A stretch of 41,868 nucleotides of DNA from Candidatus Nitrosocaldus schleperae (GTDB lineage Archaea > Thermoproteota > Nitrososphaeria > Nitrososphaerales > Nitrosocaldaceae): assembly GCA_013538805.1 (NCBI GenBank), contig JABXGR010000012.1, positions 1-41,868 of the forward strand. Direction: 5' to 3'. Under the pieces are notes generated by a model. The model saw only the letters and a program-made list of their open reading frames with translations, made no database searches and was not told where the DNA came from. Of this stretch, positions 1,999 to 3,868 are shown one piece after another; position 1 is the first letter of the stretch, and each line of letters begins with the position of its first letter. Made by a program: the position numbers and the translations under genes.

Positions 1999-2084
1999 TG
2001 CCTTATCCTATACTGCTTCTACAAGCCTTAAATTAAATGTAGAAGGAAGATTCGCTAAATCTTTATCCAATTGCTATTTAGAAT

Positions 2085-2112
2085 TATTAAAATGTTAAGC
2101 AACATTTTAATA
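2085..2112. promoter_or_regulatory. 12-bp inverted repeat holding TATA-like boxes
   Basis: The arms 2085-2096 and 2101-2112 are perfect inverted repeats separated by AAGC. Each arm contains an AT-rich TATA-like stretch. The right arm is centred near 2109, which would place a plus-strand start near 2134, just before the riboswitch-like element. It can be a divergent promoter, an operator for a dimeric regulator, or both. Confidence 0.55.
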
Positions 2113-2139
2113 TGCTGAAGCAAAGCAGGTAAGTAAGCA

Positions 2140-2207
2140 GGCTATGGCATCAGCCTAGGCATCCGTATCAATGCCTGAACCGCCCCCTGTGGCTGATGAT
2201 GCCTACC
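2140..2207 (+). ncRNA. Fluoride riboswitch (crcB motif) in the antiporter leader
   Basis: The element shows the crcB layout. A stem GGCU/AGCC (2140-2143 with 2152-2155) closes a loop AUGGCAUC. GGCAUC (2146-2151) can pair with GAUGCC (2198-2203) to form the long-range helix. An AACCGCC segment (2178-2184) begins a short stem with GGC (2191-2193), followed by the hallmark GCUGAUGAUGCCUAC (2192-2206). From memory, that 15-mer also occurs in the Pseudomonas syringae fluoride riboswitch. An additional hairpin, AGGCAU/AUGCCU (2157-2162 with 2171-2176), is inserted in the joining region. The known role is fluoride sensing. The downstream gene on the same strand is the antiporter at 2252. Confidence 0.88.
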
Positions 2208-2251
2208 GTTCATGCTGATGGTGGCAAAGGCATGTTGGGGGATGATGTAGA
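2199..2251 (+). promoter_or_regulatory. Possible expression platform and ribosome binding site of the antiporter gene
   Basis: AUGCCUACC (2199-2207), which the aptamer needs, can instead pair with GGU (2220-2222) and AGGCAU (2228-2233). A GGGGGA ribosome binding site (2237-2242) lies nine bases before the TTG start at 2252 and is complementary to CCCCC at 2183-2187. Mutually exclusive folds could therefore link the aptamer to ribosome access. The pairings are visible; the switching mechanism is inference. Confidence 0.45.
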
Positions 2252-3358
2252 TTGGTAGATCTGTACAGTAGTGCTCTAGTAGCATCAGCAATAGTTGTAT
2301 CTGGCATTGTAAGTTCAAGGGCAAAGATATCCTCATCCATAATAGAGGTTATGCTAGGGATTATCCTTGCAAATGTACTCCTCCTAAAGATAGAGGAATG
2401 GCTTGATTTCATTGCAACGTTTGGTGGCTTAACTCTTACATTCCTTGCTGGTGTTGAGGTTGAGAGCAGGTTGCTTAAAAGCAAGGCAAAGGTAAGTAGC
2501 GTAATAGGCACACTAGCATTCCTAGCACCATTGATAGGTGAGTTGTTGTTCCTTACGTTCTTTACAGATTGGAGTTGGAATGCAAAGTTAGCATCAAGCC
2601 TAGCATTAACAACAACATCGATAGCAGTTGTGTATGCTGTACTCACTGAGTATGGTATAATGCGTACACAGTTTGCAAAGACCATAGTAGCAATAACATT
2701 TGTTAACGATATCCTAACTATAGTTGGGATAAGCCTTATAGAGCCAGCATTCAATATAACCACTATAGCATTCCTGCTTACACTTGCTGCCCTAGCATTG
2801 ATAGTGCCAAGGTTAACCAATCTGTTGATAGCAAGGTATGGGGAGAAGGTTGTTGAGGTAGAGTTGAGGTTCATATTTGCAATGCTCTTACTCATATCAT
2901 TCTTTGCTGATGAGGCAGGGATGCATGCTGTATTCGGTGCATTCATGCTAGGCTTGATATTTGCTAATACAATGCAGAAGCACGATAGAGTGCTTGCTAA
3001 GATGAAGACAGTAGCATTCACACTACTCTCTCCAGCATTCTTCATAAAGGCAGGGATGCTTATATCTATTAATGCAGTTATGCAGAACATGCTCCTAGTG
3101 CTTATGCTACTCTTGGTTAAGATGTTATCAAAGTTTGCTGGATGCTATATGCTATGCAGAAGATGGTTGCCAGAGGCTCCAACATTCTCAACACTACTGC
3201 TTAGTACTGGGCTTACAGTTGGTACTATAACAGCAACCATAGGAAGGGATCTTGGGTTCCTTACACAAGAGCAGTTCTCCATAACAGTTATAGCAGTTAT
3301 ACTTAGTGCAGTAGTACCAACTATAATAGCAAAGAGATTTGTACCAAAGAATGTATGA
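2252..3358 (+). CDS. CPA/Kef-type cation-proton antiporter under a fluoride riboswitch
   Basis: The protein has 368 residues and about 11-12 hydrophobic segments, and looks like the membrane domain of the monovalent cation:proton antiporter family (Na_H_Exchanger fold). Typical stretches are GLTLTFLAGVEVES (about residues 54-67), a central region around residues 115-150 with EYGIMRTQFAKTI, and FGAFMLGLIFANTM near residue 230. The C-terminal TrkA-N/RCK domains of full KefB/KefC are absent, so it is a short form. The start is TTG, because the ATG ten bases upstream meets a stop after two codons; GGGGGA supplies the binding site. Its leader carries the crcB-like RNA, so it probably responds to fluoride. 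A Usp gene follows 54 bp downstream. The transported ion is unknown. Confidence 0.85.
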   Translation: MVDLYSSALVASAIVVSGIVSSRAKISSSIIEVMLGIILANVLLLKIEEWLDFIATFGGLTLTFLAGVEVESRLLKSKAKVSSVIGTLAFLAPLIGELLFLTFFTDWSWNAKLASSLALTTTSIAVVYAVLTEYGIMRTQFAKTIVAITFVNDILTIVGISLIEPAFNITTIAFLLTLAALALIVPRLTNLLIARYGEKVVEVELRFIFAMLLLISFFADEAGMHAVFGAFMLGLIFANTMQKHDRVLAKMKTVAFTLLSPAFFIKAGMLISINAVMQNMLLVLMLLLVKMLSKFAGCYMLCRRWLPEAPTFSTLLLSTGLTVGTITATIGRDLGFLTQEQFSITVIAVILSAVVPTIIAKRFVPKNV

Positions 3359-3415
3359 ATTATTAATAGTAAATATGAATGATTATAATAATAAGAAGAA
3401 GGAGGGGGAGAAGTG

Positions 3416-3868
3416 ATGGAGGAGAAGAGAGGTAAGAGAAGGAAGAGGATAGTTGTTGCAATTGATACATCTGATAATGCAATACATGTTATTGAGAAGG
3501 CAGCAGAGATTGCAGAGATGGTTGGTGCTGATGTAACTGTTCTAACAGTAGTAGAGGTTCCTTTTGTAGCAAGTGAAGGAGAGATGAATATGGCTAGGAT
3601 AGCAGGTGAGGAGAAGAGGATTGCTGATTACCATAAACAACTCATAGATAGATACTTCGCAGGTTCAACAAGCATACTGGTTGAGTCAATGATACTGTAT
3701 GGTGATGCTGGAGATAAGATATGTGAGCTTGCTGAGAAGATTCATGCTGATCTTGTTGTTGTAGGGAGTAGAGGATTAGGCAGAATAGAGTCTATGCTAC
3801 TTGGAAGTGTCTCTGAGAAGGTACTCAGGAAGTGTAGATGCTCAGTGCTTGTTGTTAAAAGTAGATGA
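3416..3868 (+). CDS. Universal stress protein, UspA family
   Basis: This is a 150-residue single UspA domain, a Rossmann-like nucleotide-binding fold. The N-terminal strand reads KRIVVAIDTSDNA, and the C-terminal signature GSRGLGRIESMLLGS fits the ATP-binding pattern G-2x-G-9x-G-S. A strong AGGAGGGGG ribosome site (3399-3407) precedes it; a GTG codon lies directly before the chosen ATG. It sits 54 bp behind the antiporter and is probably in the same transcript. Usp proteins are often coupled to or fused with ion transporters, so a role in controlling the antiporter or in anion or salt stress is plausible but inferred. Confidence 0.9.
   Translation: MEEKRGKRRKRIVVAIDTSDNAIHVIEKAAEIAEMVGADVTVLTVVEVPFVASEGEMNMARIAGEEKRIADYHKQLIDRYFAGSTSILVESMILYGDAGDKICELAEKIHADLVVVGSRGLGRIESMLLGSVSEKVLRKCRCSVLVVKSR

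Follow-up and report, generated by a model that had tools for sequence, protein, structure and literature searches.

The leader at positions 2131-2212 (+) of the window, as we call the whole stretch of 41,868 nucleotides analyzed here, contains a fluoride riboswitch aptamer that precedes the gene of a CPA2-type cation/proton antiporter. We think it likely that this aptamer leads a fluoride-resistance operon and serves as a translational ON switch for the antiporter, which would counter acidification and ion imbalance. In the proposed mechanism, the 3' strand of the aptamer's pseudoknot would pair with the downstream leader as long as fluoride is absent, and the ribosome-entry region would thereby be occluded. 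Upon binding of fluoride and Mg2+, the pseudoknot with the loop of P1 would form at the expense of this alternative helix, and the antiporter would be translated. The antiporter would then most likely offset the cytoplasmic acidification and the ion imbalance that are due to the entry of HF.

The first-pass annotation had read a fluoride riboswitch (crcB motif) from the ordered elements of the leader, and a search with the Rfam covariance model bears this out. With cmscan and Rfam 15, RF01734 matched 2131-2212 (+) at 44.5 bits (E=3e-9; gathering cut-off 34 bits), and all 64 model positions (1-64) were covered. No other Rfam family matched at gathering thresholds on either strand of the 41.9 kb window, and this is the sole copy of RF01734 in the 1.45 Mb genome. 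The elements that had been named, a GGCU/AGCC stem, a GGCAUC-GAUGCC helix, AACCGCC and a 15-mer GCUGAUGAUGCCUAC, are all present, and sequence and cmscan agree on them. The P1 hairpin (2140-2155, +) pairs GGCU 2140-2143 with AGCC 2152-2155 around an 8-nt loop, within which the 5' pseudoknot strand GGCAUC (2146-2151, +) is located. Its partner GAUGCC (2198-2203, +) lies inside the 15-mer (2192-2206, +), and the core AACCGCC (2178-2184) together with P2 (GCC 2182-2184 / GGC 2191-2193) occupies 2178-2193 (+). The pseudoknot comprises six pairs in the window and shows two-sided changes in relatives (GACAUU/AAUGUC, GGCGUC/GACACC). Between P1 and the core, the cmscan alignment places a 20-nt accessory hairpin, AGGCAU/AUGCCU (2157-2176, +), which has no counterpart in the Rfam model; at the equivalent position, an insert that also pairs but differs in sequence occurs in most of the listed aptamers of relatives, and family f4 has only 2-3 nt there. 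Four members of the genus retain all core elements of the aptamer while this insert varies, and this conservation, together with the E-value, makes a decayed, non-functional aptamer or a mere chance resemblance extremely improbable; a chance origin was rejected on the strength of the RF01734 match. The stretch 2131-2212 is thus confirmed, at the level of sequence, as a genuine fluoride riboswitch aptamer, and it is predicted to bind fluoride. Upstream of it, a TATA-box-like TTTAATAT (2106-2113, +), which is also found in the relatives G197, G273 and G438, would put the transcript start at about 2135, just 5' of the aptamer.

The antiporter gene (2252-3358, +) encodes 368 amino acids and begins with TTG about 40 nt after the aptamer. 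As had been annotated, it lies on the same strand 45 bases downstream: the first in-frame start, TTG 2252, follows position 2207 by exactly this distance. A start further upstream is ruled out by an in-frame TGA at 2243-2245, and TTG 2252 is supported by a GTG at the same place in the relative G438. The earlier assignment to an archaeal antiporter also holds, as the protein matches PF00999 (E=3.6e-43) and its relatives are named as Thaumarchaeota or Nitrososphaerales. PF00999 is the only family matched, neither PF02537 nor PF00654 being found, and the match to the CPA2 model TIGR00932 reaches only 97.7 bits, the cut-off being 238. The nearest solved sequences are the CPA2 antiporters NapA (PDB 4bwz, 5bz3; E about 5e-12, over 335 residues) and KefC (8bxg; E about 5e-8). 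In the alignment with NapA, D153 of the window protein corresponds to D157, and N152-D153 stands opposite the aspartate pair of NapA, so that the DD of that protein is an ND here. Both residues are invariant in eight orthologues, as is the NDI core of the motif TFVNDIL in which they lie.

The next gene, 54 nt after the antiporter, encodes a universal stress protein (UspA; 3413-3868, +; PF00582, E=2.1e-33). It is kept directly after the antiporter in most relatives and probably belongs to the same fluoride-resistance operon. On the other side, family search and neighborhood comparison identified a divergent MFS transporter gene (817-1998, -), which is likewise a neighbor of the antiporter in congeners and in Methanoperedens (48% identity); some other antiporter loci have weaker matches. 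This gene may possibly be part of the fluoride module.

The linkage of riboswitch and antiporter extends well beyond the window. RF01734 was found at E<=0.001 in 79 of the 398 genomes of the phylum and in 58 of the 201 genomes of the order. In the other families of the order, the loci that were read have it mostly 5' of crcB, often with a DUF190-like gene (names beyond PF02537 by eye). Ten genomes of the order encode orthologues of the window's antiporter, with 58-95% identity and the riboswitch directly upstream, and the congeners G197, G273 and G438 have aptamer and antiporter as in the window. When GTDB representative contigs were searched with the alignment of the antiporter, 19 loci emerged, 18 of them with upstream DNA, from Nitrososphaerales/Thaumarchaeota, Methanothrix and relatives, Methanoperedens, a Bathyarchaeota MAG, a Methanomethylicia MAG and one Chloroflexi MAG. 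The clade spans 55-95% identity among archaea, and the single Chloroflexi relative stands at 37%. RF01734 lies upstream on the same strand above the gathering score at 15 of the 18 loci; two further aptamers, of L117 (30.2 bits) and L118 (the same as L097; 28.5 bits), fall under that score. Counting these 17 together with the window, G197 and G398, a recognizable fluoride aptamer is found upstream at 20 of the 21 loci of the clade with readable upstream DNA. The leader of L116 contains only a degenerate look-alike, as judged by eye. The leaders of L117 (2895-2966), L118 and L116 have CCAAUAG where the consensus is CUGAUGA/CUGAUAG, before the same antiporter, and could possibly represent variant aptamers. 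The second PF00999 gene of the genome has no riboswitch match beside it, nor do the antiporter paralogues of the order, which are 26-30% identical.

How the aptamer may control the gene is best seen in the relatives. In the minimum free energy (MFE) fold of the window, UGCC 2200-2203 and ACC 2205-2207 pair with GGUGGCA 2220-2226, U2204 being bulged, and the resulting helix (2200-2226, +) takes the 3' strand of the pseudoknot; helix and ligand-bound aptamer would therefore be mutually exclusive. With seven pairs and a bulge, the helix of the window is no better than in shuffles (p=0.53), and its distance from the start codon is 25 nt, in contrast to the adjacent position in most relatives, where the homologous helix has 8-10 bp. 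Pairing of the aptamer's 3' strand with the next ~60 nt was compared with dinucleotide shuffles in 57 related leaders, which are not independent loci, and was significant in 37 of them at p<0.05 and in 20 at p<0.01. Across 17 distinct sequences of the arms, pairing is seen in 94% of the cells and two-sided changes in six of eight pairs, as compared with 27-57% paired in slid controls, a count that favors pairing because the arms were picked by complementarity. The downstream arm lies 0-5 nt 5' of the start codon in several relatives and includes the GUG start in Methanothrix-type loci. Other segments of the aptamer seem, by eye, to serve the same role at some loci, namely CCGCUCGC with GCGAGCGG in f4 and the 3' arm of P1 in L119 and L121. 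Taken together, the covariation and the position of the helix support translational ON control in the related group, as predicted from the leaders. In the window itself, GGGGG 2237-2241 (+), 10 nt before TTG, may be a ribosome-binding sequence, and the MFE fold pairs it with CCCCC 2183-2187; the fold energy of the leader is average (z=0.15). Constraint folding of the bound state, which allows nested folds only and leaves pseudoknots outside the model, freed neither TTG nor GGGGG. Because the start was not exposed in this folding, translational control of the window copy is proposed by analogy with the relatives.

It could be argued that the same riboswitch acts on transcription or on mRNA stability instead of translation initiation. 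Many bacterial fluoride riboswitches use terminators (PMC2864571, PMC13273304), and the 25 nt between the alternative helix and the start codon of the window would also fit such a mode. However, no terminator-like site is found within 2000-3420, and the longest run of T in the 60 nt that follow the aptamer measures 3 in the median and 5 at most among the 57 related leaders, so that an intrinsic terminator can be rejected. As the helix furthermore lies at or on the start codon in relatives, we consider control at these other levels unlikely. A different possibility concerns the frame that is controlled. A short frame, MLGDDVDW* (2232-2258), follows the alternative helix and overlaps the TTG of the antiporter, and an ATG frame that ends across or beside the antiporter start is found in the genus of the window, in G398 and in L106-L108. 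A leader peptide could thus be the directly controlled frame, with the antiporter translated by coupling, and its recurrence in two or three lineages speaks for this. Against it, shuffled spacers yield such a frame by chance at rates of 3-18% per locus, the lineages do not share a peptide sequence, and no such frame exists at loci whose helix lies directly against the start, for which reason we did not retain the coupling and hold it to be improbable.

While the translational switch concerns the RNA, the role of the antiporter raises the question of whether it extrudes fluoride itself and is a non-orthologous replacement of Fluc or CLC-F. Neither Fluc (PF02537) nor CLC (PF00654) was found in this genome. 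Fluc is absent from 20 of the 21 genomes of the antiporter clade, G428 (82% complete) being the exception; CLC-family genes occur in G422, G428, G444 and G540, and 17 of the 21 genomes have neither. Within the order, antiporter and Fluc occur together in one of ten genomes, and Fluc is found in 96 of 191 genomes without the antiporter (Fisher p=0.019), in a sample of genomes that share ancestry and are in part incomplete. The nearly constant riboswitch linkage of this clade, which sets it apart from the second PF00999 gene and the 26-30% identical paralogues, also speaks for a transporter of fluoride. However, Fluc is absent from all 50 genomes of the Methanotrichales, only six of which have an antiporter match, so that its absence is partly lineage-wide, and the congeners G257 and G432 lack both antiporter and Fluc. 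When only the riboswitch-bearing genomes of the order are considered, the test of antiporter against Fluc gives p=2e-6, but this test is biased, as each riboswitch necessarily has a target of some kind. With an unconditioned p=0.019 in genomes that are not phylogenetically independent, and with an independent order devoid of Fluc, a statistical law of replacement was rejected, and the exclusivity of antiporter and Fluc is only suggestive. The protein has moreover kept the CPA2 cation-site motif (TFVNDIL, with D153 aligned to D157 of NapA), and we know of no CPA protein that moves fluoride. Fluoride export by the antiporter is therefore quite unlikely in our view, and we are equally doubtful that this CPA2 clade, almost invariably under riboswitch control, represents a third kind of fluoride-resistance transporter, replacing Fluc/CLC-F in many archaea and possibly moving fluoride. 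A role in offsetting acidification and ion imbalance remains the preferred reading.

Several parts of this picture are already known. The crcB motif has been known from archaea since 2010 (PMC2864571), and Na+/H+ antiporters, for which a role in pH homeostasis has been proposed, are reported to be the next commonest riboswitch targets after exporters (PMC11139923). The window shares with the fluoride riboswitch (RF01734; Weinberg 2010; Baker 2012) P1, the AACCGCC core, P2, the pseudoknot from loop to 3' strand and the position in a 5' leader; it differs from the model by the hairpin between P1 and core, and its downstream partner is an anti-pseudoknot helix and not a terminator. In 2018, Speed et al. 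reported a fluoride-responsive riboswitch of archaea (AEM e02306-17, as cited in PMC9855744), and the system, which according to that citation was used in hyperthermophiles, has the archaeal host and the riboswitch class in common with the window. The riboswitch-linked antiporters of PMC11139923 are CPA-type targets as well, whereas the one described here belongs to a specific archaeal clade that is nearly always riboswitch-linked and mostly without Fluc or CLC. A uspA gene is part of the riboswitch-controlled fluoride operon of Enterobacter cloacae FRM (PMC5533749), which resembles the window in both respects; it also contains crcB, eno, ppaC and gpmA, and in the window the antiporter takes the place of the exporter. 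In a search mostly outside the subscription literature, we found no description of this antiporter clade as almost constantly linked to the riboswitch, nor of its frequent occurrence without Fluc or CLC, and we claim no priority. With this analysis, the archaeal fluoride riboswitches gain a well-supported member, and fluoride, as the likely physiological signal of an antiporter clade, can be read from an RNA leader. The survival of archaea under fluoride in the absence of Fluc or CLC becomes a testable question. To our knowledge, few archaeal riboswitch expression platforms have been worked out, and the helix next to the start codon in the relatives offers a simple and testable model for such control.

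Further riboswitch copies were encountered beside other genes. Methanothrix-type loci have extra RF01734 copies 5' of enolase-like and glutamine-synthetase-like genes (names by eye). In another genome of the same order (G303), contig C37 carries seven copies within 20 kb (54369-73392; L102, L103), one of which does not reach the gathering score. Their neighbors by eye are TFB-like transcription factors, a hydrogenase-4/formate-hydrogenlyase-like operon, UspA, DUF190, enolase and a secreted protein, and a crcB gene (PF02537) follows at C37:74732, so that the region looks like a fluoride regulon island. In G089, G180, G209 and G268 (L038, L041, L042, L044), the riboswitch stands before a protein of 342-391 aa with a signal-like N terminus, which matched no family, and crcB is located further downstream. 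Many riboswitches of the phylum (several of L002-L030) precede proteins of ~280-297 aa with an RQNxDGGY motif, which by eye have prenyltransferase/cyclase-like repeats, and a gene of this type is also found divergently oriented beside the Methanothrix-type antiporters.
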